Shown here: piece by piece, positions 27,096 to 40,488 of the stretch
How the letters are laid out: every line of letters starts with the position of its first letter
Position numbering within the stretch: the first letter of the stretch is position 1
Assembly: GCF_006717095.1 (NCBI RefSeq)
Contig: NZ_VFQE01000001.1
Location: forward strand, 1,550,001-1,614,000
Direction of reading: 5' to 3'
Length of the DNA stretch: 64,000 nucleotides
Source: Blastococcus colisei
Lineage (GTDB): Bacteria > Actinomycetota > Actinomycetes > Mycobacteriales > Geodermatophilaceae
Position numbers and translations under genes: made by a program
Notes under the pieces: generated by a model
What the model saw: the letters and a program-made list of their open reading frames with translations, nothing else
Database searches by the model: none
Told to the model about the DNA's origin: nothing

Positions 27096-30000
27096 TCAAG
27101 CCACTTTGGCGGCATGGAAGACGTCCGCCGGTAGCGCGTGTTCGAGGTTCCACAAGATGCGCATGGGCCGCTCGCCGGTGTGTGACAAGTAGGTCATTGG
27201 GCCGGCGTACAGGTAAGGCGGAGCGCCGAGGTTGCCGTCTGATGTCTTGGTCTCACGCAAGAACAGGTGTACCGAGGTTCCGAGCTCACGATGGTGGATG
27301 TAGCGGTTGCCGACGCCCGTGCCGGGGCGAGTCGTGTTCTGTGATTCCCACTGGAAGATGCTCGGTGAGATGGCGTGGTCGGCATACATCGTCGTTGGGG
27401 AGTAGTGCAGCTCGGTCTTCTGCAGGGTTACGAAAAAGAGGTCTGCGCTCTCATCGGGGATCCACCAGACGCCTGCCCCGAACGCGTTGGCAAGGGACTC
27501 CCTGCCGAATGCCGCCAGCGCCTCCACCTGCGTGTACCGCGCGTGTAGATGCAGTGGTCGGGCGCTGGCCGCCGTTAGTTTGGGGGTGACCCGATGCAGC
27601 CGGTCGACTAGCACGTCGGTGAGCTGGGTCAGTTCCTCGGCCCGACTCGGATGGCGGAGGAGCCGGTCAAGGCTTGCCTCGATCGAGCTGAACTGCTCCT
27701 GCTGTCCGAACAGGGAGAAGTGCAGCATTGCTGCAAGGCGACGACTTCGCGCATCTCTCGTTACGTCTGTTGTGCCGGCCGCGGTAATGATTTCCCGGAT
27801 GAACTGGAGGCGTTCGAGGTCGTCGATGTGCAACATGCGCGCAAAGGCATTGGCCAGGCGGCGGTCATCCGGGCCGGGGGTGTCCTGGACGCGCTCAGCG
27901 GCCCTCTGCAGGTCAAGCCAGCTCCGGCGATTGCCGCGGTAGAGGTCCTCGAGCTCGATGCCGGCTTCGTCGAGGAACTCGGCCATCGTCGGCCGCTCCA
28001 AGCTACGCGCCTCGGCGACGAGTCCCTTCCAAGACACGTTCAGGGATTGCTTGATGTTCTCCAGCACGATTCGCTGAGCGACTCTGTCGAGCTCGATGTG
28101 ACAGCCGGCCGGCAGCGTGGGGAACCCCTGCTCGACGTCCCTCTGTAGACCACGACGCGAGCTGCCCGTGAGAGCTCGGAACCGTAAGTCGAAGCGAAAT
28201 TCCTGATGCTGCGCCCCGATGAAGTCGAGGACCGTCAGGCATGCCTTGTCCTCGCTCAGCCGCAAGCCTCGACCGAGCTGCTGCAGGAACACCGTGGCGC
28301 TCTCCGTGGGCCGGAGGAACAGCACCGTGTCGACTGTCGGGATGTCGAGCCCCTCGTTGAACAGGTCGACCGTGAACAGCACGTTGGCCTGGCGCTCGCG
28401 TAAAGCGACGAGGGCAGCGGCTCGCTCCTCGCGCGACGTCTGGGAGGTGATGGCACGGCTGGGGATGCCTGCGGCGCTGAAGCGCTCCGCCATAAACTCG
28501 GCGTGCTGGATGCTCACGCAGAACCCCAGGGCGCGCATCCTCCCGGGGTTCTCCACCTTGTCGTGCACCGCCTGCAGGATGAGACGCACGCGGTGGTCAT
28601 CACCGGTGTAAACGTTGGTGAGCTCGGTGAGGTCGTAGCCGCGACCGCGCTTCCAGCGCACCTGCTCCAGCGCCACGTCATCGTGTAGGCCGAAGTATTG
28701 AAACGGCGCCAGCAGTCCCTGCTCCAGTGCTTCCCACAGCCGCAGCTCCACGGCGGTTCGACCGTCAAACCACTCCCGGACATCGGCGCCGTCGGTGCGT
28801 TCTGGTGTCGCAGTGAGGCCGACAAGGACCTTCGGCGCGACGTGCTCAAGTAGGCGGCGATATGTGGACGCCATTGCGTGGTGGAACTCGTCCACGACGA
28901 TCATGTCGAAGTGCGCGGGATCAAGGTCGGCCCGGTCGAGCTGAGTCAGGGACTGTACGGACCCGAAGACGTGACGCCACTCTCGCGGTCGCTGGCCGGC
29001 GACATAGAGCTCGCCAAAGTCGCCCTGCCTGAGCACGTGTCGGAATGTCGACAGGCTCTGAACCAGCAGCTCTTCGCGGTGAGCGATGAACAGAATGCGG
29101 TCGACCGTTCCTGCGTCGCGCAGCCGCTTGTAGTCCAGCGCAGAGACCACCGTCTTGCCGGTTCCCGTGGCCATCACCACGAGGTTGCGCCACCGGTTGT
29201 GGATGGTGCGCTGCGCCTCGAGCTCGTCGAGGATCTCCCGCTGGTAGCCGAATGGGCGGACGTCGAGTGAGGTGATCTGGATGGGCAGGTCCGAAGGACC
29301 GCCGCGCTCCGCGTTGAGCGCCTCCCGCAACCGGTCGCCGTCCCGTGCCGGGTCGTACGTCTCGAACGATGGGTCAGCCCAGTAGCTGTCGAATGTCTCG
29401 GCGAAGGTCTCGAGAAGATGGGCCTGCTCGACGTTCGAGAGGCGGACGTTCCATTCCAGCCCGTCCGTCAGCGCCGTACGGGACATGTTTGAGGAGCCCA
29501 CGTATGCCGTCGATAGCCCGGTCGCGCGGCGGAATAGCCACGCTTTGGCGTGTAGTCGCGTCGTTCGGGTCTCGTACGAGATCTTGACGTCTGCGCCCAA
29601 CTCCACGAGGCGATCGAGCGCCCGCTGATCGGTCGCGCCCATGTACGTCGTGGTGATGACACGAAGCCGACCGCCCCGCTCCCTCAAGTCGATCAGCGCT
29701 TTCGCTAGCACGCGAAGCCCCTGCCACTTGATGAAGGCGCAGAGCAAGTCCACACCGTCGGCGGACGCGAGCTCCCGAGTGACCTCGTAACCGATGCGGG
29801 GTTGTCCGCGGCCGTTCACCAACAGCGCACTCGTGGACAGCGGGACGGCGGGTCGTTCCGGGAACGACACGGGGCCTGGGACGCTGTTCGGCGCAGCGAC
29901 CGCCAGGAGCTGGCGTACGGGATCAGTGACAGCGTCGTTCGAGTCGGCTGCTTCCGGCGCGAGATCGCCGATCGCGGCAACAATCCGGTTGGCCAATTCG

Positions 30001-30209
30001 ACTTGCCGACTGACGGCCGCGGAATCGCCTCCGCCGGCTGCTCGCAGCGCGCGGCTAGTGAGGCCGGCGATGTGGCGGGCTAGGGCCTCGTGGGCGTCCG
30101 CCGGATCGAGCGCGCCGATCTGAATCAAGTCGTGAGCCGTCGACGTCAAGTCTCTGCTGAAGCGGTCGGTGATCAGGTGCTCGTACAGCCCGGCAGGCAC
30201 GTCCCCCAT
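27096..30209 (-). CDS. PLD-nuclease / superfamily 2 helicase / DUF3427 protein
   Basis: A 1,037-residue protein with three parts. A phospholipase-D-like nuclease module has H220-x-K222 in RLHAKAWLF followed by YVGSSNMSRTAL. A superfamily 2 helicase has Walker A MATGTGKT (residues 347-354), DEFH at 440-443, GLTATPERTDG and QQLGRGLRL. The C-terminal 300 residues match DUF3427 (YTQVEALAAFGRE; DLFFVTLQKTELHYSPTTMY). This architecture is known from restriction-like and repair proteins. The gene is visibly less GC-rich than its neighbours, with many A/T third positions, suggesting acquisition by transfer. Start ATG at 30209. Full length appears intact. Confidence 0.9.
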   Translation of the reverse strand: MGDVPAGLYEHLITDRFSRDLTSTAHDLIQIGALDPADAHEALARHIAGLTSRALRAAGGGDSAAVSRQVELANRIVAAIGDLAPEAADSNDAVTDPVRQLLAVAAPNSVPGPVSFPERPAVPLSTSALLVNGRGQPRIGYEVTRELASADGVDLLCAFIKWQGLRVLAKALIDLRERGGRLRVITTTYMGATDQRALDRLVELGADVKISYETRTTRLHAKAWLFRRATGLSTAYVGSSNMSRTALTDGLEWNVRLSNVEQAHLLETFAETFDSYWADPSFETYDPARDGDRLREALNAERGGPSDLPIQITSLDVRPFGYQREILDELEAQRTIHNRWRNLVVMATGTGKTVVSALDYKRLRDAGTVDRILFIAHREELLVQSLSTFRHVLRQGDFGELYVAGQRPREWRHVFGSVQSLTQLDRADLDPAHFDMIVVDEFHHAMASTYRRLLEHVAPKVLVGLTATPERTDGADVREWFDGRTAVELRLWEALEQGLLAPFQYFGLHDDVALEQVRWKRGRGYDLTELTNVYTGDDHRVRLILQAVHDKVENPGRMRALGFCVSIQHAEFMAERFSAAGIPSRAITSQTSREERAAALVALRERQANVLFTVDLFNEGLDIPTVDTVLFLRPTESATVFLQQLGRGLRLSEDKACLTVLDFIGAQHQEFRFDLRFRALTGSSRRGLQRDVEQGFPTLPAGCHIELDRVAQRIVLENIKQSLNVSWKGLVAEARSLERPTMAEFLDEAGIELEDLYRGNRRSWLDLQRAAERVQDTPGPDDRRLANAFARMLHIDDLERLQFIREIITAAGTTDVTRDARSRRLAAMLHFSLFGQQEQFSSIEASLDRLLRHPSRAEELTQLTDVLVDRLHRVTPKLTAASARPLHLHARYTQVEALAAFGRESLANAFGAGVWWIPDESADLFFVTLQKTELHYSPTTMYADHAISPSIFQWESQNTTRPGTGVGNRYIHHRELGTSVHLFLRETKTSDGNLGAPPYLYAGPMTYLSHTGERPMRILWNLEHALPADVFHAAKVA

Positions 30210-30354: not shown

Positions 30355-31758
30355 CTAGATCGCGTACTCACTCAGACGATCCAGCGCGGCGGTGAAGCTG
30401 TCGTTCCAGAGCCCGAGGTGCGGCCACCGTTCGGCGACGTGCGCCGTCGCCTCCTCGACCGACATCCCCTTCTCGCGCACCAGCCAGCCGCGCAGCACTA
30501 GCCCGGTGCGCGAAGCGCCGCCGTGGCAGTGCACCAGGAGCCGGTGTCCCTCCTCCTGCAGCGCCGCCATGTCGTCGAGGACGTCGGCGAGCATTACGCC
30601 GAGGTCGGCGTTGTGCTCGTTGTCGGCGATGTAGGCCATCCGGTGCACGGGGTGCCGGAACGGCTCGCCGAGCCGGCACAGCGAGATGACGGCGAAGTCT
30701 TCCTCGCTGTAGCGCGCGCCATCGAGGTTGCCGGCCCAGATGCCCGGCAGCACCTCCGTCGGCCCGATCCGCGGGATCACACCCGGGTCGTAGTTCTGCT
30801 GCACCGCGCCGTCCAGCGCAGCGGCGAGCTGCTGCAGGTCGGGCAGCCGCCACACGCGATCACCGAAGCCGGGAACCCGCCCGTGCACCACCGACGCCCA
30901 CCGGCTGGGGATCGCCCCCATGCCGAAGACCGCGCCGGCCAGCCCACCGGCGACGGCGGCCACCGTGTCGGTGTCCCCGCCGAGGTCTATCACCAGCCGC
31001 AGCACCTCGGCGAAATCGCGGCCGTTGCGCAGCGCCCACACCGCCTGGCCGAGCGTCGGCCACACCGCACCGTTCGCCTCGGTCGCGTCGGCCGGCGTCC
31101 ACTCCGGCGCCAGCACGGTCGCCCACCGGCCCCGGTGCACGGTCGCCACTGCGTCGAGCACGGACGGGATCGCGGCCAGCGGGTTCCCGCCGTCCAGCGC
31201 CACGCGCACCAGCTCGTGGAAGATCGCGCAGCCCTCGCCGGCCGAGGGGTCGCCGTGGGTCAGTGCCGAGAGGCGCCGGGCGGCGTCCATGGTGGCTTCG
31301 CGACCGTCGCGCGAGAAACGGATGGCGGCCGGCGTGGTCCTCATCAGCGAGCCGTTGCCCGCCGCGTGCCCGGAGCGGGCGAAGTGCTCGGCCGCGGCGA
31401 CGTCCCATGGTCGGCCCGAGCCCATGACGGCGCGCGTCTGGTTGCCGATATCCGGCGGTCCGGCCGCCGCCCAGGTGCGGAACCGGTCGAAGACGTCGGC
31501 CCCGTCCAGACCACCGTGCTCCACCAGCGACGTCGCCACCAGCAGCGCCATCTGCGTGTCGTCCGTGAACTCGCCGGGCTCCCAGTCCAGCGATCCGCCG
31601 CCGCACATCTCCGTCTTCGAGCCGCGGGCCGGCACCGGGAAGCGGGCCGAGAACCGCCCCGGCGGCCCGAACTCGAACGGGGCACCGAGCGCGTCGCCGA
31701 CGGCGGAGCCGACGAGCGCGCCGGCGACGCGGTGGGAGCGGTGCATGCGCTGGGTCAC
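30355..31758 (-). CDS. ADP-ribosylglycohydrolase fused to dual-specificity phosphatase-like domain
   Basis: A 467-residue two-domain protein. Residues 1-300 are an ADP-ribosylglycohydrolase with the magnesium ligands FTDDTQM (65-68) and LGGDTDTVAAVAGG (261-265). Residues 325-467 form a tyrosine/dual-specificity phosphatase with the P-loop HCHGGASRTG (Cys411, Arg417). The first domain would remove ADP-ribose from proteins or nucleic acids; the second would hydrolyse phosphoesters, possibly a phospho-ADP-ribose type product. Both active sites appear complete. It is followed downstream by the leftward helicase gene after 145 bp. The combined substrate is unknown. Confidence 0.88.
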   Translation of the reverse strand: MTQRMHRSHRVAGALVGSAVGDALGAPFEFGPPGRFSARFPVPARGSKTEMCGGGSLDWEPGEFTDDTQMALLVATSLVEHGGLDGADVFDRFRTWAAAGPPDIGNQTRAVMGSGRPWDVAAAEHFARSGHAAGNGSLMRTTPAAIRFSRDGREATMDAARRLSALTHGDPSAGEGCAIFHELVRVALDGGNPLAAIPSVLDAVATVHRGRWATVLAPEWTPADATEANGAVWPTLGQAVWALRNGRDFAEVLRLVIDLGGDTDTVAAVAGGLAGAVFGMGAIPSRWASVVHGRVPGFGDRVWRLPDLQQLAAALDGAVQQNYDPGVIPRIGPTEVLPGIWAGNLDGARYSEEDFAVISLCRLGEPFRHPVHRMAYIADNEHNADLGVMLADVLDDMAALQEEGHRLLVHCHGGASRTGLVLRGWLVREKGMSVEEATAHVAERWPHLGLWNDSFTAALDRLSEYAI

Positions 31759-32229: not shown

Positions 32230-32871
32230 ATGAGGGAAACCGTCGGAGCGCAGGTGAGACGCGTGTGTCCCCGGTGCGGGCGCGAGGACTCGATCCCGCT
32301 GGTCTACGGGCTGCCAGGCTCCGACCTCTTCCAACAGGCAGAGCGCGGGCGGGTCGGTCTGGGCGGTTGTCTGGTGATGGACGAGCAGGCGGCGTTCGTC
32401 TGCCGCTCCTGCGAGCTGGAGTGGGGGAGCGAGTCGGACCCGACCGCAGACGAGGCGGAGCTGACCGAGCTGCTGGGCGTGGCCTACCCCGACGTCGTCC
32501 GCGCGCTGGGCACCGGCTGGCGGCGAGAGGCGCCAGCCATCGGAGACGACGTGCAGTGGTTCGTCAGCGGCGAGCCGGCGCAGGTGGCCGTCGGGGTGCA
32601 GGGCCCCTACTTCGTCCTGGCCCGGCCCCTTACCTCTGGGGGCGAGGGTCGCCCCGGACCGCTCTCGACGGACGGTCCGCGGTTCACCCGGGACGACGTC
32701 CTCCTTGACCCGCACCCGGTGGCCGATGCCGCCGAGGCCATCGCTTCCAGCCGGCGTCGGTCGTTCCGCTGGTGCCGCACCTGCCGCCGGGCCACTGCGC
32801 CGGAGTCGTTCGACGCCTCCGAGGGCTCGTGCGAGCACTGTCTGTCGATCCTTCCCGATTCGCACGAGTGA
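32230..32871 (+). CDS. Double zinc-ribbon protein of unknown function
   Basis: A 213-residue protein with Cys pairs at both ends. N-terminal VCPRCGRED and FVCRSCELEW form one ribbon; C-terminal WCRTCRRA and GSCEHCLSIL form another. Between them is a WFVSGEPAQVAVGVQGPYFVLARPL segment with no recognised family. ATG at 32230 has a weak GGGAG site. It lies 168 bp upstream of the exonuclease operon on the same strand; a regulatory or nucleic-acid-binding role is possible but only inferred. Confidence 0.7.
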   Translation: MRETVGAQVRRVCPRCGREDSIPLVYGLPGSDLFQQAERGRVGLGGCLVMDEQAAFVCRSCELEWGSESDPTADEAELTELLGVAYPDVVRALGTGWRREAPAIGDDVQWFVSGEPAQVAVGVQGPYFVLARPLTSGGEGRPGPLSTDGPRFTRDDVLLDPHPVADAAEAIASSRRRSFRWCRTCRRATAPESFDASEGSCEHCLSILPDSHE

Positions 32872-33039: not shown

Positions 33040-34341
33040 GTGACCGTTGCCGTCGTCGACGTGGAGACCACCGGGTTGTCCCCGAAGATGGACCGCGTCG
33101 TGGAGGTGGGCGTCGTCCTGCTCGACTCCCGCGGTGAGGTCGAGGGCGAGTTCGAGACCCTGGTCAATCCCGGACGGGACGTCGGGCCGACCGGGCTGCA
33201 CGGCATCAGCGCGTCCGACGTCGTGGACGCGCCCGCCTTCTCCGACGTCGCGCCGCACCTGCGGTCGCTGCTCTCCGGCCGCGTCGTCGTCGCCCACAAC
33301 GCGTTGTTCGATCTGCGCTTCCTGGCCCGGGAGTTCGGCCGTGCCGGCTGGCCGATCCCGCTGTCGCCGTCCCTGTGCACCATGCGCTTGGCGCCGCTGT
33401 TCTTCGGCTCGGGCACCCGATCCCTCCAGGCGCTCTGCGGCTTCCTCGACATCCCGCTCGTGCACGGCCACGCCGCGCTGCACGACGCCCGCGCCACCGC
33501 GGAACTGATGCTGTCCATGCTGGCTTCCGACCTGGGCACCGGATCGCTCGCCGGGGCCGGTGTCCGCGTCGACTTCGCGGACGATGGCAGCTACCGCGGC
33601 TTCGAGGCCCTCGACGGTGGCTGGGCCGACCTCGTCGCCGCGGCGTCCGCGCACGCCGCCGACGGCCCGTGTCCTCCGTGCCGCACCCTGCCCCGCGACG
33701 CGGCGACCGCCGCCGTCCGCGAGCGGGACGGCTACCTCGGCGGGCTGGTCGCCGCCCTACCGGCACTGGACGACGCGCCGCCGAGCATGGCGCCGTACCT
33801 GACCGTGCTCGACCAGGTTCTCGAGGACCGGCTCGTCAGCGTCACCGAGGCAGCCCAGCTCGTCGCCCTGGCCGGTGAGCTGGGCTGCGGCTCCGACCAC
33901 GTCTCCGCCGCCCACCGGATCTACCTGGAGGCCTTGGCCACTGCCGCCTACGCCGACGGCGTGGTCACCGACGCGGAGCGCTCCGACCTCGACCGCGTCG
34001 CGTCGCTGCTCGGAATGGGGAGCCGGGACGTCGAGCTGGCACTCGCCGTGGTGCGCAGCGGCGCGCAGGTGTCGCTGCCCCGGCGGGCGGAGGTCTTCGC
34101 GCCCGGCGACCGGATCGTCTTCACCGGAGCCATGAGCCGGACCCGCGACGAGCTCGAGCAGGCTGCGCGCAACGCCGGCCTGACCCCGATGTCCTCGGTC
34201 TCCAAGCAGACCGCCGTCCTCGTCTGCGCCGATCCGCACTCCCAGTCGGGCAAGGCGGCCAAGGCGCGAGCGCTCGGCGTGCGGGTGATCGGCGAGGCGG
34301 TGTTCTGGGAGGCCCTCTCGGTCGCGGGGATGCGCACGTGA
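33040..34341 (+). CDS. DEDDh 3'-5' exonuclease with TerB-like middle and C-terminal BRCT domain
   Basis: A 433-residue protein. The N-terminal DnaQ-like exonuclease has VAVVDVETTGLSP (metal ligands D7 and E9), VVVAHNALFDLRFL and HGHAALHDARATAELM, giving the DEDDh set. A central helical region (LEALATAAYADGVVTDAERSDLDRV) resembles TerB. The C-terminal 75 residues are a BRCT domain (GDRIVFTGAMSRTRDELEQAA; AVLVCADPHSQSGKAAKARALGVRVIGE). It would trim 3' DNA ends, with BRCT mediating protein or DNA contacts. The GTG at 33040 is chosen for its AGAGGAG site over the ATG 60 bp upstream. It overlaps the next gene by GTGA. Confidence 0.88.
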   Translation: MTVAVVDVETTGLSPKMDRVVEVGVVLLDSRGEVEGEFETLVNPGRDVGPTGLHGISASDVVDAPAFSDVAPHLRSLLSGRVVVAHNALFDLRFLAREFGRAGWPIPLSPSLCTMRLAPLFFGSGTRSLQALCGFLDIPLVHGHAALHDARATAELMLSMLASDLGTGSLAGAGVRVDFADDGSYRGFEALDGGWADLVAAASAHAADGPCPPCRTLPRDAATAAVRERDGYLGGLVAALPALDDAPPSMAPYLTVLDQVLEDRLVSVTEAAQLVALAGELGCGSDHVSAAHRIYLEALATAAYADGVVTDAERSDLDRVASLLGMGSRDVELALAVVRSGAQVSLPRRAEVFAPGDRIVFTGAMSRTRDELEQAARNAGLTPMSSVSKQTAVLVCADPHSQSGKAAKARALGVRVIGEAVFWEALSVAGMRT

Positions 34342-35972
34342 CGGCGCGGCTCTTCCCCGAGGAGCCGGAGTTCGCGTCTGCCTCCGAGCAGCTGCTGGTG
34401 CAGACGCTGCGAGACCAGCTGCCCGACGACGCCGCCCTGTTCTGCAACATCCGCTTCAGCGACCGGTCGCAGGACCGGGAAGCCGACGTCATCGTCGCCT
34501 GGCCGGGCGTGGGCGTCGCCGTCGTGGAGGTCAAGGGCGGCAGTGTCTCGCTGGAGCGCGGGGAATGGCGCCAGATCGGTGACGGCGTGGACCGCATGGT
34601 CCGCCCGGTCGACCAGGCGGTCGCCTGCAAGTACCTGCTCTGCGAGTACCTGGCCGACCACCCGCGCTGGACGGCGAGCCGCCCGCGGACCGCCCACCTG
34701 GTCGCGCTGCCGGCGACCACGCTCCCGGCCGACTTCAGGGCGCCGGGGCTGGCGCGCTGGATGACCGTCGACAAGACCGATGTGCCGCACGTCGCGGCCC
34801 GGATCCGGGCGGCGCTGGAGAAGGTGCGGGACGAGCCCGACCCGCCGACGGCGGGCGACGTCGACGCGCTCGTCGACTGCCTCGCCGGGACCGCGATCCC
34901 GCAGCAGGACCTGCTGGCCCAGGTCGCCGAGCGGGAGGCAGCCTGCGACCTGCTCACCCGGCGGCAGGCGAAGGTGCTCACGATGCTCGAGTCGTTCCAC
35001 CGGGTCGAGATCCGTGGCGGTGCCGGCTCCGGCAAGACCTGGCTGGCCGTCGAGAAGGCCCGCCGGCTCGCCGCGCAGGGCCAGCGAGTCGCGCTCATGT
35101 GCTACTCGCGCGGGCTGGCCGAGTTCCTTAAGCGGCGGGTCGACACCCTGCGGAAGAAGGAGCGCCCCGGGTACGTCGGTACCTTTCACTACCTCGGCAT
35201 CGGGTGGGGCGTGGAGCCCGGGTCCGACGACGACAGCCAGTACTGGGAGGAGTTCCTGCCCGCCGAGATGGTCTCGCTGGCGGCGCGGCTGCCGGAGTCC
35301 GAGCGGTTCGATGCGATCGTCATCGACGAGGGGCAGGACTTCGCCGAGAGCTGGTGGGACGTGGTCCGTGCCGCGCTGCGCGACCCGGACGAGGGATCGA
35401 TCTACGTCTTCTCCGACGAGGGGCAGCGGATCTTCGCCCGGCAGGGGCGGCCCACGGTCGACCTGACGCCGATCCCGCTGAACGAGAACCTGCGCAACAC
35501 CAAGCAGATCGCCGGCACCTTCTCCAGCCTCGCCCCCGAGCAGATGGAGATCCGCGGCCTGGCGGGGGTGCCCGTGCGCTTCGTCCAGTGCTCGTCCGAG
35601 GATGCGGTCGACGCTGCCGACGACGTCGCCGAGGCACTGCTCGACGGTGGGTGGCCGCCGGAGCACGTTGCGCTGCTGACCACACACCGCCGGCATCCCG
35701 TCCAGGTGGAGCGGCAGGCCGAGGGGCAGGACGCCTACTGGGACACGTACTGGCAGAACGACGACCTCTTCTACGGCCACGTGCTCGGTTTCAAAGGCCT
35801 CGAGCGCCCCGCCGTCGTCCTGGCCGTCAACGGCTTCCGGAACGAGGCCCGCGCCCGGGAGATGCTCTACGTCGGGCTGTCCCGCGCTCGCGACCTGCTG
35901 GTCGTCTGCGGCGACCTAGAACTCATCCGCCGGGTGGGCGGCAAGGCAGTCGCCCGCCGGCTCACCGCCTGA
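34338..35972 (+). CDS. NERD-domain nuclease fused to UvrD-like helicase
   Basis: A 544-residue protein. The N-terminal NERD domain, related to PD-(D/E)XK nucleases, has ADVIVAWPGVGVAVVEVKGG (D50, E64, K66). The helicase part has Walker A GGAGSGKT (227-234), Walker B IVIDEGQDF (DEGQD at 330-334), NLRNTKQI and YVGLSRARDLLVVCG. It would unwind and possibly nick DNA. Its GTG overlaps the exonuclease stop, so the two are made together; the OGG-fold gene follows after 23 bp. NERD-helicases are frequent in bacterial defence and repair regions. Confidence 0.88.
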   Translation: MTARLFPEEPEFASASEQLLVQTLRDQLPDDAALFCNIRFSDRSQDREADVIVAWPGVGVAVVEVKGGSVSLERGEWRQIGDGVDRMVRPVDQAVACKYLLCEYLADHPRWTASRPRTAHLVALPATTLPADFRAPGLARWMTVDKTDVPHVAARIRAALEKVRDEPDPPTAGDVDALVDCLAGTAIPQQDLLAQVAEREAACDLLTRRQAKVLTMLESFHRVEIRGGAGSGKTWLAVEKARRLAAQGQRVALMCYSRGLAEFLKRRVDTLRKKERPGYVGTFHYLGIGWGVEPGSDDDSQYWEEFLPAEMVSLAARLPESERFDAIVIDEGQDFAESWWDVVRAALRDPDEGSIYVFSDEGQRIFARQGRPTVDLTPIPLNENLRNTKQIAGTFSSLAPEQMEIRGLAGVPVRFVQCSSEDAVDAADDVAEALLDGGWPPEHVALLTTHRRHPVQVERQAEGQDAYWDTYWQNDDLFYGHVLGFKGLERPAVVLAVNGFRNEARAREMLYVGLSRARDLLVVCGDLELIRRVGGKAVARRLTA

Positions 35973-35995
35973 CCGCGATCTACGGAGACAACAGC

Positions 35996-36697
35996 ATGAG
36001 CGAGCCCAGTCAGCTGCAGCTGCCCGAATGGTTGTCCACGAATCTCCGTGCCACGCCTGCCGCGGAGGTGGCCGGTCAGCCGGTCACGGTGAACCGGAGC
36101 TGGTGGGAAGAACGCCTCGACGGCACTCCTTTCGCCGACGAGCTCTTCGACTCCCCGGAGGAGCGGCTAACTCGCACACTGCTCTTCGAACTCGGGGAGC
36201 GAGCCGGCAAGTCACCGGAGGACGCCCGCCGGTTGCTCTGGGCCACGCTGGCCTGGGGAACGGGTCGGCGGCACCGCAACAACCGAGCTCGCGTCACCGC
36301 TGTCGTGAAGGGCGGCGACGAGCTCAGCGAGGTGCTGAGACGGGCGGCCGAGGTCGGCCGCGCCGACCCCTCGGCTGCCTACCGGCTGCTCCGGCCCTAC
36401 CGGAACGCCGTCTCCCACCTGGGCCCGCCCTTCTTCACGAAGTTCCTCTACTTCGCCGGCGGCGGCAGCGCCGCCCACCCCTGTCTCATCCTCGACTCCC
36501 TGGTCGCGAAAACCCTTCGGCGGCAGTGCGGCTGGACGGAACTCACCGGTTGGTACAGCTGGCCGGCCAACCAGTACGTCGACTACTGCGAGCTCCTCGC
36601 CCGTTGGGCCAAGGAGCTGAGCGACGACGTAACCGGCGACGCGGTGCGCCCCGACCAGCTGGAGTACGCCCTCTTTAACCGAGGGAGGCACTCATGA
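35996..36697 (+). CDS. OGG-fold (8-oxoguanine DNA glycosylase-like) protein
   Basis: A 233-residue helical protein with a helix-hairpin-helix glycosylase signature: HLGPPFFTKFLYFAG followed by CLILDSLVAKTL. Lys149 and Asp167 occupy the positions of the catalytic Lys and Asp of OGG1-type HhH glycosylases, so base excision and strand cleavage look possible. An upstream segment SWWEERLDGTPFADELF and ending in ALFNRGRHS are unlike housekeeping OGG1, and the N-terminal antiparallel domain is missing or reduced. ATG at 35996 has a GGAG site. The stop overlaps the next gene (ATGA). The base recognised is unknown. Confidence 0.78.
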   Translation: MSEPSQLQLPEWLSTNLRATPAAEVAGQPVTVNRSWWEERLDGTPFADELFDSPEERLTRTLLFELGERAGKSPEDARRLLWATLAWGTGRRHRNNRARVTAVVKGGDELSEVLRRAAEVGRADPSAAYRLLRPYRNAVSHLGPPFFTKFLYFAGGGSAAHPCLILDSLVAKTLRRQCGWTELTGWYSWPANQYVDYCELLARWAKELSDDVTGDAVRPDQLEYALFNRGRHS

Positions 36698-37632
36698 CGA
36701 CTGCTGACATCACCGTCGTCGCCTCGGACAACGCTGTCACCCGGCGCGAACGGCGACGCCAGTCGGCCTACCGCGACGAGGTTCTCGGGTTGCCTGCCGG
36801 ACCGGCCCGGGACGGCCGCATTCTGGGCAACTACCTGCCCGCTGACGACCGGCGCAGCAACTTCCTCAGTTCCGAGGCCGCCGACTATGCCGCCTCGCGT
36901 GTGGACGTCGTCCGGAGCGAGGGCGGGCAGCTCGAGCAGACCCGGCTGTTCACCAACATGCTCAGCTCGATGCCGATGTGCTTCAGCGTCTTCGGCCACC
37001 TCCGCGCGCGGCCGGAGGCCGCGGCCGCGCTCCTGTCGTCGCTGACCGGTCGAAGCATCGCGGGTTTCGACCGGGTGACCGTCGGCCGCCGGACCATCGA
37101 CGGGATCGAGTGCGAGTGGGCGCCCGAGCGGCGCGAGCACCTGGACGACGGCACCGCCTTCGACGCCGTGGTCGCCGCCCGGCTGGCGGACGGACGACGA
37201 CTCCTGATCGCCGTCGAGACCAAGTACGTCGACACCTTCAGCCGGGACAAGGACGACCCCGAGAGGGACCGCGAGTACCGCCGCTTCTGCGAGCAGTTCG
37301 GCATGGCGCCCACCGCCTTCGACGCGCTGAAGGGCCCAGCCACCCGGCAGCTGCTGCGCAACGTCCTGCTCACCGAGAGCGTGCGCCGGGGCGGTGCGAG
37401 CGGGCCCGAGGCACTGTTCGACGACGCACTCACGCTCGTGCTCGCGCGGGAGGACGACGCCGCTGCACGGTCGACGGTGGCCGCCATCGACCGAGAGCGC
37501 GGCGGCCTGCCGACGGCGGTGGCGTTCGTCGGCCACGGTCCGCTGGCCAACGTTGCGTCCGGGATCGATGGGCTGGGGGAGTGGGCCACCCGCTTCCGTC
37601 GCCGCTACGTCGCCTCCGAAGAACTCTCGTGA
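36694..37632 (+). CDS. PGN_0703-type PD-(D/E)XK nuclease
   Basis: A 312-residue protein. The signature LFTNMLSSMPMCFSVFG (residues about 85-101) is typical of PGN_0703-like proteins, and FDAVVAARLADGRRLLIAVETKY gives D157, E175 and K177, a complete PD-(D/E)XK site. These are predicted restriction-like endonucleases without an assigned system. Start and stop of the previous gene overlap as ATGA with a GGGAGG site, so it is tightly coupled to the OGG-fold gene. A decayed copy of its C-terminus lies 2.9 kb downstream. Confidence 0.8.
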   Translation: MTTADITVVASDNAVTRRERRRQSAYRDEVLGLPAGPARDGRILGNYLPADDRRSNFLSSEAADYAASRVDVVRSEGGQLEQTRLFTNMLSSMPMCFSVFGHLRARPEAAAALLSSLTGRSIAGFDRVTVGRRTIDGIECEWAPERREHLDDGTAFDAVVAARLADGRRLLIAVETKYVDTFSRDKDDPERDREYRRFCEQFGMAPTAFDALKGPATRQLLRNVLLTESVRRGGASGPEALFDDALTLVLAREDDAAARSTVAAIDRERGGLPTAVAFVGHGPLANVASGIDGLGEWATRFRRRYVASEELS

Positions 37633-38727: not shown

Positions 38728-39816
38728 ATGGGACTTGGGGTCGACGTGAATGAACTGCTCGCTCTCGCGGGTGCGCACAAGGCTCTGACGGCCGTGGCCG
38801 TCGCTGCGGTGGTCGTGGGCGGCGGAATCGTTGCGGCGACCGCGGTCGGATCCACCATCGCGACGGTCACCAAGGTGGTCGACGGCGACACCATCGACGT
38901 CCGCTACGGCGGCCGAGAACACAGGGTTCGCCTTCTCAACATCGACACCCCTGAGGCCGTGGACCCGAATTCTCCGGTCGAGTGCTTGGGCCCTGAGGCG
39001 TCCGACTGGCTGAAGCAGCGGTTGCCGGTCGGCACCGAAGTGCGCCTCGAGCGGGACGAGGAGACGCGCGACCGCTACGACCGAGAACTGGCTGCCGTCT
39101 TTCTCGGGGACGAGTTCGTCAATGCCGAGATCGCCAGAGCCGGCATGGGCGTCGCGATGTCCGTCGGCCCCAACGTCAAGTTCTTGCCGCAGGTAGAGGC
39201 CGCCCAGGCGGAGGCCGTGAGCGGTGGTCGCGGTCTGTATGCCACCTCGATCGAGTGCACGGTGCCCGCACGCGTTGAGGAACTCAGCTCCGCCGCTACC
39301 GAGACCGTCGGGCAGGAACCCGCAGGCGCGGCAGCGCTCGCCGACTTCGACTCGCACCGTGCTGAGCTCGTCGCCCTTCTGGTGACCGCCAAGGACCTGC
39401 TGGCTCTTCTTGACGGCGACGCGGATGTCCTACCGATGGCGGCCTACCGCAACCAGACGAGCACTCTTCGCTGGCAGGTGGCGAGAGTCCAGGACCGGTT
39501 GGAGTCCGCCGAGACCAGGAACGGGATCGCCCGGGACGCGCGAAAGAGCCAGCTCGCGGAGGAGGCGCGCCGCGCGGCTGAGGAAGCCGCCCGCCAGGCG
39601 GCCGCGGAAGCCGCGCGCCAGGCTGCGGCCGAGCGCGCCGCTGCTGCGGCACGGGCAGCGCAGCAGTCGGCGCCGTCGTATCGCCCCCCGTCCCCATCAA
39701 CCGCCACGCGCACCGCGGCTCCGCCGCCGTCCAACAGCGGATCCGGGTCGAGCACCTACACCGGCTGCCGGAGTTACGCGCCTGGCGGGAAGACGTGGAC
39801 GCCGATTCCGTGCTGA
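38728..39816 (+). CDS. Membrane-anchored or secreted thermonuclease (SNase-like) with Ala-rich coiled tail
   Basis: A 362-residue protein. A hydrophobic helix (about 18-42) precedes an SNase fold: VTKVVDGDTIDVRYGGREHRVRLLNIDTPE and RYDRELAAVFLGDEFVNAEIARAG, which carry the catalytic Asp, Arg and Glu positions. The second half is an Ala/Arg/Glu-rich coiled coil (EEARRAAEEAARQAAAEAA) ending in CRSYAPGGKTWTPIPC. Such nucleases cut DNA or RNA outside the cell or in the periplasm-like space. The ATG at 38728 has no clear ribosome site. It lies between the HhH membrane protein and a NERD protein. Confidence 0.85.
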   Translation: MGLGVDVNELLALAGAHKALTAVAVAAVVVGGGIVAATAVGSTIATVTKVVDGDTIDVRYGGREHRVRLLNIDTPEAVDPNSPVECLGPEASDWLKQRLPVGTEVRLERDEETRDRYDRELAAVFLGDEFVNAEIARAGMGVAMSVGPNVKFLPQVEAAQAEAVSGGRGLYATSIECTVPARVEELSSAATETVGQEPAGAAALADFDSHRAELVALLVTAKDLLALLDGDADVLPMAAYRNQTSTLRWQVARVQDRLESAETRNGIARDARKSQLAEEARRAAEEAARQAAAEAARQAAAERAAAAARAAQQSAPSYRPPSPSTATRTAAPPPSNSGSGSSTYTGCRSYAPGGKTWTPIPC

Positions 39817-39837: not shown

Positions 39838-40488
39838 ATGGACATGACCGAGCAGCACACGGGCTGGGATGACCTGGCCATCCGTTGCCCGGGCAGTGCT
39901 GCCAGCGCCCAGGCAGCGCAGGCCCGTGCGGCCGCACCCGTCCGGTCAGTGCTCGCCCGACTGATGGGCGTGCACAGCGACGAACGCGCATGGCGACTCG
40001 GCGCTGCCGGCGAGAAGCGTGTTGGTCGTCAGCTCGAGCGTTTGATGAAGGACGACCCCCGGTGGCGCTGTCTGCACGCCATCCCGGTCGGTAGGCGAGG
40101 TGCGGACATCCACCATTTCGTGATCGGCCCGGGCGGCGTGTTCACGCTCAACGCCAAGCACCACCCAGGCGCTCGGCTCTGGGTCGGTGGCGACACCTTC
40201 ATGGTCAACGGCGTCCGGCAGCCTTACGTGCGGAACAGCAGGCACGAAGCCGACCGCGTGAGCAGCCTGCTGTCTTCTGCGGTCGGTCATCCGATTGCGG
40301 TCACCGGCCTCGTCGTCCCCGTCGGTGCTCAGGACGTCCGGATCAAGAAGCCGCCGAAGGACGATGCGGTCGTGCCACGGCGGCAGCTGTGGCGCTGGTT
40401 ATCGCATCAGCCACAGGCACTGCCCGTCGCGATCATCGACACGCTCTTTGAGCAAGCCCGCCGGTCTGCAACGTGGACCGGTACGTGA
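39838..40488 (+). CDS. Stand-alone NERD-domain protein
   Basis: A 216-residue protein with a NERD core: GAAGEKRVGRQLERL, then GRRGADIHHFVIGPGGVFTLNAKHHPG. The acidic residue in ADI and the Lys in NAKHH match the nuclease-like core of actinobacterial NERD proteins. Start at 39838 or an ATG six bases later; GACGAGGAG precedes both. It follows the thermonuclease after 21 bp, suggesting co-transcription. NERD proteins are presumed DNA-processing enzymes; direct activity here is not shown. Confidence 0.8.
   Translation: MDMTEQHTGWDDLAIRCPGSAASAQAAQARAAAPVRSVLARLMGVHSDERAWRLGAAGEKRVGRQLERLMKDDPRWRCLHAIPVGRRGADIHHFVIGPGGVFTLNAKHHPGARLWVGGDTFMVNGVRQPYVRNSRHEADRVSSLLSSAVGHPIAVTGLVVPVGAQDVRIKKPPKDDAVVPRRQLWRWLSHQPQALPVAIIDTLFEQARRSATWTGT

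Follow-up and report, generated by a model that had tools for sequence, protein, structure and literature searches.

A four-gene exonuclease, helicase, glycosylase, and nuclease operon of Blastococcus colisei as a candidate modular pathway for degrading invading DNA

We analyzed a 64,000-nt stretch of the Blastococcus colisei genome, hereafter the window (NCBI RefSeq assembly GCF_006717095.1, contig NZ_VFQE01000001.1, C1:1550001-1614000; genome of 5.16 Mb in four contigs). At window positions 33040-37632, four intact genes on the + strand encode an exonuclease (EXO), a helicase (HEL), a protein with the helix-hairpin-helix (HhH) fold of DNA glycosylases (OGG), and a nuclease (NUC), in that order. 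We put at roughly 0.5 the probability that these genes form a modular operon for the degradation of invader DNA in which the glycosylase is the swap-in initiating enzyme. In our ranking of the most likely uses, invading DNA comes first, DNA repair is a distinctly less probable second, and chance assembly is an unlikely third. The four genes, their spacer, and a small gene upstream are as follows.

33040..34341, + strand: EXO, 433 aa, DEDDh 3'-5' exonuclease with a TerB-like segment and a C-terminal BRCT domain (Pfam; PADLOC PDC-S48)
34338..35972, + strand: HEL, 544 aa, NERD nuclease domain joined to a UvrD-type SF1 (superfamily 1) helicase (Pfam)
35973..35995, + strand: 23-bp spacer between HEL and OGG (sequence)
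35996..36697, + strand: OGG, 233 aa, OGG-like HhH DNA glycosylase, PF21790 (Pfam; AlphaFold2 model)
36694..37632, + strand: NUC, 312 aa, PD-(D/E)XK nuclease PDDEXK_13, PF20796 (Pfam)
32230..32871, + strand: c2, small cysteine-rich protein 168 bp upstream of the operon (no Pfam family over cut-off)

An earlier sequence-only reading of this DNA had described four nearly fused genes with catalytic residues in place, and the genes proved to be real, intact, and tightly packed, with the named residues retained. Two of the overlaps it listed were confirmed, each of 4 bp (GTGA at 34338 between EXO and HEL, ATGA at 36694 between OGG and NUC), but the 23 bp at 35973-35995, listed as the third, separate HEL from OGG as a spacer. 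From the close spacing we infer that the four genes are co-transcribed. A consensus scan of the operon returned no promoter or terminator, although such a scan says little at 72% GC.

Under the reading that we prefer, the chromosomal NERD-UvrD helicase, often with the DEDDh-BRCT exonuclease translated just before it, would be a strand-opening and degrading core, and the genes downstream would supply exchangeable initiating enzymes, here OGG and NUC, and in sister genomes NUC alone or a DUF6884/GIY-YIG nuclease. OGG would flip out and excise a non-host, probably modified, base. The strand would then be broken at or near the abasic site by the OGG lysine through apurinic/apyrimidinic (AP) lyase chemistry, by the NERD domain, or by NUC, after which HEL would unwind from the break and EXO would remove the strand in the 3'-5' direction.

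The identities and active sites of the proteins fit these assignments. EXO matched Pfam RNase_T (87 bits) and BRCT (28 bits), with a TerB-like match at 23 bits, just below the cut-off; catalytic D7, E9, D91, H144, and D149 were kept in 13 of 13 sequences, which bears out the DEDDh exonuclease with BRCT originally described. It is also a full-length match to PADLOC PDC-S48 (452.6 bits, residues 3-427). The PADLOC PDCs are guilt-by-embedding candidates, mostly unvalidated, and PDC-S48 itself is not discussed in the accessible part of the source (PMC12988326). HEL scored 40 bits for NERD, 29 bits for UvrD N, and 30 bits for UvrD C. Its Walker A and Walker B (D330/E331) motifs were present in 43/43 aligned sequences, so the intact Walker boxes that had been claimed are indeed there, and NERD residues D50/E64/K66 were present in 42/43. 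NUC matched PF20796 PDDEXK_13 at 246.7 bits and REase-ARP at 75 bits, and the D157, E175, and K177 previously read from its sequence were found in all 9 aligned sequences. The NUC model (predicted local distance difference test score, pLDDT, 85.7) gave weak structural matches (Z ≤7.2), among them a weak resemblance to McrC, AspBHI, and MspJI (Z 5.0-5.7), and a sequence search of solved structures gave one non-significant match (E 0.28). We rejected naming a NUC subfamily from the model, the structural matches being too weak.

OGG belongs to PF21790, scoring 201.5 bits against a curated cut-off of 27 bits. Its AlphaFold2 model (pLDDT 96.1) is predicted to have the HhH-GPD DNA glycosylase fold, and glycosylase activity is predicted with it. 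The four best VIA rows were the 8-oxoguanine glycosylases Tm1821, MjOgg (two entries), and SsOgg (Z 9.4-10.6, root-mean-square deviation 3.5-3.8, 171-172 residues aligned, 15-21% identity); most rows after these were DNA glycosylases too, although a Z of about 10 for a helical protein is inconclusive alone. Foldseek alone returned no OGG match at E 0.001, and a sequence-profile search of solved structures returned none for OGG or HEL. OGG shares with Tm1821, MjOgg, and SsOgg, which are enzymes of the Ogg2 type, the fold and the Lys/Asp pair, and has its best fold matches there without any sequence match; it differs from them further in being patchy and partly plasmid-borne. The Lys149 and Asp167 noted in the sequence-only reading held up, with K149 in 15/16 and D167 in 16/16 aligned sequences collected without a motif filter, the window included. 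Both were invariant in a 49-row alignment whose rows were chosen by a Lys-containing pattern and which is therefore uninformative on K149. The pair is spaced 18 residues apart, and K249-D268 of human OGG1 is spaced 19 apart (PMC13160076). OGG is not the sole base-excision enzyme of the window genome, because 4 Fpg-type and 2 HhH-GPD matches were found besides it.

The OGG family is patchy, accessory, and partly mobile. It was found in 11 of 112 genomes of the family Geodermatophilaceae (E 0.001; distant paralogues counted), in 16 of 396 phylum genomes, and in 0 of 14 control genomes. Among 72,556 plasmid records, 25 carried OGG (12 from Rhodococcus and 9 from Arthrobacter), of which 11 were conjugative and 3 mobilizable; in 50,697 phage records, a set searched for OGG and not for NUC, there was none. 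Separately, viral contigs yielded one OGG relative and two nuclease relatives. NUC occurred in 14/112 family genomes (E 0.001), in 23/396 phylum genomes (19 over the cut-off), and in 0/14 controls. Both samples of 396 seem to consist of one and the same set of genomes. The broad, stable spread expected of housekeeping base-excision repair was seen for neither protein.

The gene company of OGG was followed in a pattern scan of one genome per species (84,980 species), which returned 109 OGG relatives; the best 80 were kept as loci, a set skewed to lysine-bearing members because the scan pattern contains FFTK. Of these 80 loci, 3 had NUC near OGG, 2 had HEL, 4 had an EXO-like gene, and 7 had a GmrSD gene. 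The GmrSD count used the first 50 of the 57 OGG loci of at least 18 kb (49 genomes), and "full-length" denoted an open frame of ≥450 aa at E ≤1e-10. A full-length GmrSD gene lay ≤10 kb from OGG in 7 of these 50 loci versus 0.10 expected at random, a significance that is overstated because accessory genes cluster and the expectation assumes uniform gene placement. Genome-wide, the 49 genomes held 134 copies of GmrSD_C, 26 of them in frames of ≥450 aa as counted by eye.

In three loci GmrSD directly follows OGG, with gaps of 13 bp in L212, 13 bp in L213, and 32 bp past the match end in L210. The GmrSD genes of L212 and L210 match GmrSD_N/C and HEC-06; further genes of L212 are a DrmD-like helicase (323 bits) and an IIG/DrmMI-like methylase (1378 / 193 bits), L210 has a DrmD-like gene (197 bits), and L213 holds homologues of the L212 genes. 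The island order in L212 and L213 is DrmD-like helicase, IIG/DrmMI-like methylase, OGG, GmrSD, and a very large helicase, the last DUF1998-like by eye. On the OGG tree the GmrSD linkage needs 3 changes, of which well-supported branches force only 1 (L231 lies outside the tree), and it is possible from this topology that the linkage arose once. Restriction genes also adjoin OGG elsewhere: among the eight family genomes with only a distant OGG, type I or IIG genes lie beside it in three (G051, G021, and G082), as they do in Cellulomonas sp. JH27-2, and phage-type integrases occur at the OGG loci of G051, G082, and JH27-2. Overall, a minority of OGG loci have a restriction, type IV, or DISARM-like gene next to OGG.

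Linkage of OGG to a helicase or another nuclease recurs as well. In L210, from Propionibacteriaceae UBA4569, a NERD helicase 45% identical to HEL lies 134 bp from OGG in divergent orientation. The OGG of L210 falls outside the window clade of the OGG tree, and the helicase-glycosylase linkage recurs in this one unrelated lineage; in G185 the helicase and OGG are 8.3 kb apart. Plasmid pMYC1 (L284, 6280-10094) carries a row of exonuclease, GmrSD_C/HNH nuclease, OGG, and a uracil-DNA glycosylase (UDG). Two Mycobacterium metagenome-assembled genomes, L202 (7279-13141) and L203, have the exonuclease-HNH nuclease-OGG row, and L202 also has the UDG.

Three further observations concern the OGG neighborhood. 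pMYC1 and L202 place two glycosylase folds, OGG and the UDG superfamily, in a single gene row. A UDG-like gene akin to the Pfam-confirmed UDGs of L202 and pMYC1 stands just upstream of OGG in L220, L226, and L230. A small zinc-ribbon-like protein of about 186 aa (below the Pfam cut-off) is a recurrent neighbor, its gene overlapping OGG by 4 bp in L177 and L199 and lying a few bases past the match in L183, L185, and L193; it is possibly a regulator or partner.

HEL is the stable core of the locus, which EXO, NUC, the DUF6884/GIY-YIG nuclease, and OGG join in varying combinations. It was present in 49/112 family genomes (E 1e-60), in 10 of 12 genera, and EXO matches were present in 24/112 (E 1e-40; distant copies counted). 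Helicase loci were stretches from all 49 HEL genomes except G071 and G072, with 46 entering the slot count, and EXO lay directly upstream of HEL in 11 of the 46. The slot directly downstream was filled by c12 in 6 loci, OGG in 2, c25 in 2, c16 in 2, and NUC in 1; 19 had no same-strand gene within 100 bp, 2 ended with the contig, and 12 had a different single gene. Genes were called with a home-made codon-usage caller that missed OGG in 19 of the 80 loci and HEL in G052, whose inclusion would raise the c12 count to 7. The c12 product is a DUF6884 plus GIY-YIG protein that matches PADLOC PDC-M57A (88 bits) and, weakly, DpdC (25 bits).

The full order EXO-HEL-OGG-NUC was found in the window genome and in Blastococcus sp. 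CCUG 61487 (G016/L172), counted as another genus, where the tight spacing is also kept and the quartet is followed by c12-type sequence split into one piece of 154 aa and one of 281 aa. With the same order and spacing in both, the arrangement of the quartet goes beyond chance. Geodermatophilus chilensis B12 has a partial copy spread over contigs: HEL-OGG lies at the end of one contig and OGG-NUC at the end of a second, and EXO gave no match in these stretches. NUC often accompanies HEL without OGG, in the arrangements HEL-NUC-c12 (G014), HEL-c12-NUC (G052), NUC-c2-HEL-c12 (G109), and HEL-NUC with a distant nuclease (G077). In a 296-genome sample HEL occurred in 16, of which OGG was present in 3 (G000, G185, and G389) and NUC in 2 (G000 and G378). 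Of the 46 helicase loci, 19 had c2 ≤6 kb from HEL; in G049 the c2 gene stands directly upstream of NUC at a distance of 12 bp, and it is a possible further member of the gene set.

Several of our results weigh against a role in defense. The full gene order is confined to 2 of 112 family genomes, and among 396 phylum genomes the window genome alone has both OGG and NUC (1 observed, 0.93 expected by chance from their counts of 16 and 23). We therefore rejected an obligate OGG-NUC partnership and, after searches of PADLOC, NCBIfam, PHROGs, and Pfam, the quartet as a fixed named system. Neither OGG nor NUC matched a PADLOC model, and one OGG relative (G409) has Trp at the K149 position. By eye, many OGG loci (e.g. 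in Nocardia, Lentzea, and Amycolatopsis) had no evident defense gene alongside. A test of the two genes flanking OGG in each of 45 loci, comparing 90 near with 90 distal proteins of the same loci, gave no support for general PADLOC enrichment (155 near vs 127 far families hit). This test dropped 35 of the 80 loci for being short, having few called genes, or being kin to the window (L172 and L198), and L210 and L212, two of the seven GmrSD-linked loci, were among them; within it the GmrSD group, with 3 of the 90 near proteins, stands out. Finally, HEL is 85% identical to its counterpart in the genus of G016, versus 91% for the neighboring ADP-ribosylglycohydrolase, and from such comparisons it looks vertically inherited, unlike a typical mobile defense gene. 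The ADP-ribosylglycohydrolase gene lay within the fetched stretch in 26/46 HEL loci and an NrtR-like regulator in 16/46, with likely counterparts near HEL even in other orders, and this neighborhood suggests a chromosomal role of HEL.

The HEL locus also has an apparent link to ADP-ribose biology. ADP-ribosylglycohydrolase-like genes were seen near the NERD helicase in L300 and L303 (both by eye) and in L210 (same cluster), with an NrtR-like regulator in L300. At 30355-31758 on the - strand, the window itself encodes an ADP-ribosylglycohydrolase joined to a dual-specificity-phosphatase domain.

In its first form, the proposal was a possible defense pathway carried by these four genes. The intact active sites, the accessory, partly mobile OGG that sometimes sits by restriction genes, and the PDC-S48 match of EXO remain in favor of defense, but conservation of the four genes as a system was not supported. 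A lack of conservation in other genomes, named in the earlier reading as grounds for dropping the proposal, comes close to being true of the quartet but is not true of the pairs within it.

The strongest competing explanation is that this is an accessory operon by which a stress-tolerant soil actinobacterium repairs its DNA: OGG would remove oxidized guanine, NUC and HEL would open the site, and EXO would trim the end. Geodermatophilaceae are known for radiation and desiccation tolerance, the closest folds of OGG are 8-oxoguanine glycosylases, and the wide, apparently vertical presence of HEL suits such a role. The DUF6884 domain of c12 points the same way, the member YfjM being reported among abasic-lesion interactors (PMC11701544); this fits a glycosylase neighbor, but it fits repair too. 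Against repair stand the rarity of OGG and NUC in the phylum and their absence from the controls, the occurrence of OGG on plasmids and beside restriction genes in some loci, the Fpg-type and HhH-GPD enzymes already present in the window genome, and the lack of any match to an AP endonuclease family among the four genes in Pfam. We judge repair to be a tentative alternative, appreciably less probable than degradation of invading DNA.

It is less likely again that the locus is a gene-flux hotspot, with unrelated DNA-processing genes gathered beside HEL and co-transcribed by position, in no common pathway. The slot downstream of HEL is highly variable over the 46 loci, toxin-antitoxin-like genes lie near many of them by eye, and OGG and NUC are not associated across the phylum sample. 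A hotspot does not sit easily with the 4-bp overlaps and a gene order that two genera share, nor with HEL-OGG and OGG-nuclease linkages that recur in further lineages. Least probable by far is that OGG is no glycosylase and uses its HhH fold to modify DNA or nucleotides, as happens in phage hypermodification. In favor of this there is a weak structural likeness to 8z2n, a phage enzyme of base hypermodification (Z 5.9), and to the queuosine salvage enzyme DUF2419 (Z 7.3); against it, the four best structural matches are 8-oxoguanine glycosylases, and 15/16 sequences keep the Lys/Asp pair.

The statement that no named system has this set agrees with our searches: PADLOC, NCBIfam, PHROGs, and Pfam named none, and we found no paper describing one. 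A literature search in which subscription papers were mostly not covered found no paper on the quartet or on an HhH glycosylase in defense coupled to a NERD helicase, an exonuclease, and a PD-(D/E)XK nuclease, and within the same scope PF21790, PGN_0703, PF20796, PDDEXK_13, OGG-like, and PDC-S48 were unmentioned. Base-excision defense as such is already known from Brig1 (PMC11078745), Brig3 (PMC13160076), and R.PabI (PMC10273834). Like OGG, Brig1 and Brig3 are DNA glycosylases in small operons, proposed to create abasic sites in phage DNA (PMC11078745, PMC13160076), and the Brig3 operon sits in a defense island (PMC13160076); OGG differs, in a comparison by description only, in its 8-oxoguanine-glycosylase (HhH) fold, its Lys/Asp pair, and its coupling to a helicase, an exonuclease, and a nuclease. 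R.PabI offers a parallel as a mobile restriction glycosylase with lysine AP-lyase chemistry (PMC10273834), but its fold is HALFPIPE and it comes with a paired methyltransferase, and there is no methyltransferase among the four window genes. The GmrSD / HEC-06 type IV enzymes are direct or close neighbors of the OGG family in the 7 of 50 loci described above, whereas the window nuclease is PD-(D/E)XK and the window operon is without GmrSD. HEL resembles GajB of Gabija as a UvrD-type helicase (PADLOC, 38.2 bits) and the DRT-associated NERD helicase RTasNERD-Hel through its NERD fusion (110.7 bits). Membership of Gabija was rejected for want of a GajA match among the four genes (PADLOC), membership of DRT for want of a reverse transcriptase match (PADLOC, Pfam), and membership of DISARM because the partner genes are missing from the window operon. 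UDG and aGPT-Pplase are among the predicted, unvalidated defense systems of DefensePredictor (PMC13092281).

Other genes of the window were noted around the operon. At 27096-30209 (- strand), a large helicase matches PADLOC mREase_IV (943 bits) in a region of 65-68% GC versus about 72%; lying 2.8 kb upstream of the operon, it is likely an acquired restriction gene. Downstream, the gene at 38728-39816 (+ strand) encodes a protein with a staphylococcal nuclease domain and, judged by eye, a hydrophobic segment at its N terminus, and 21 bp after this gene, at 39838-40488 (+ strand), there is a second, stand-alone NERD-domain protein.

In bacteria the HhH glycosylase superfamily is known for repair, and aGPT-Pplase is of the HhH type. 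We consider it doubtful, though worth stating, that PF21790 is an unrecognized family of mobile HhH glycosylases that act in restriction, removing a modified purine (e.g. of the 7-deazaguanine type) from actinophage DNA and pairing with any nuclease at hand. The 8-oxoguanine pocket could in that case be adapted to a 7-deazaguanine-type base, and the partners here would be PD-(D/E)XK, the NERD helicase, and the exonuclease, with GmrSD taking their place in the DISARM-like islands and HNH with a UDG-type glycosylase on the mycobacterial plasmid. DpdC, which belongs to the 7-deazaguanine islands, has the domain DUF6884 (PMC11888242), and the presence of this domain in the alternative slot gene c12 may be a faint pointer to 7-deazaguanine. 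If PF21790 were a defense family, the large HhH glycosylase superfamily would enter immunity, and the partner rule, a glycosylase beside a swappable nuclease, would predict roles for hypothetical proteins on actinobacterial plasmids.

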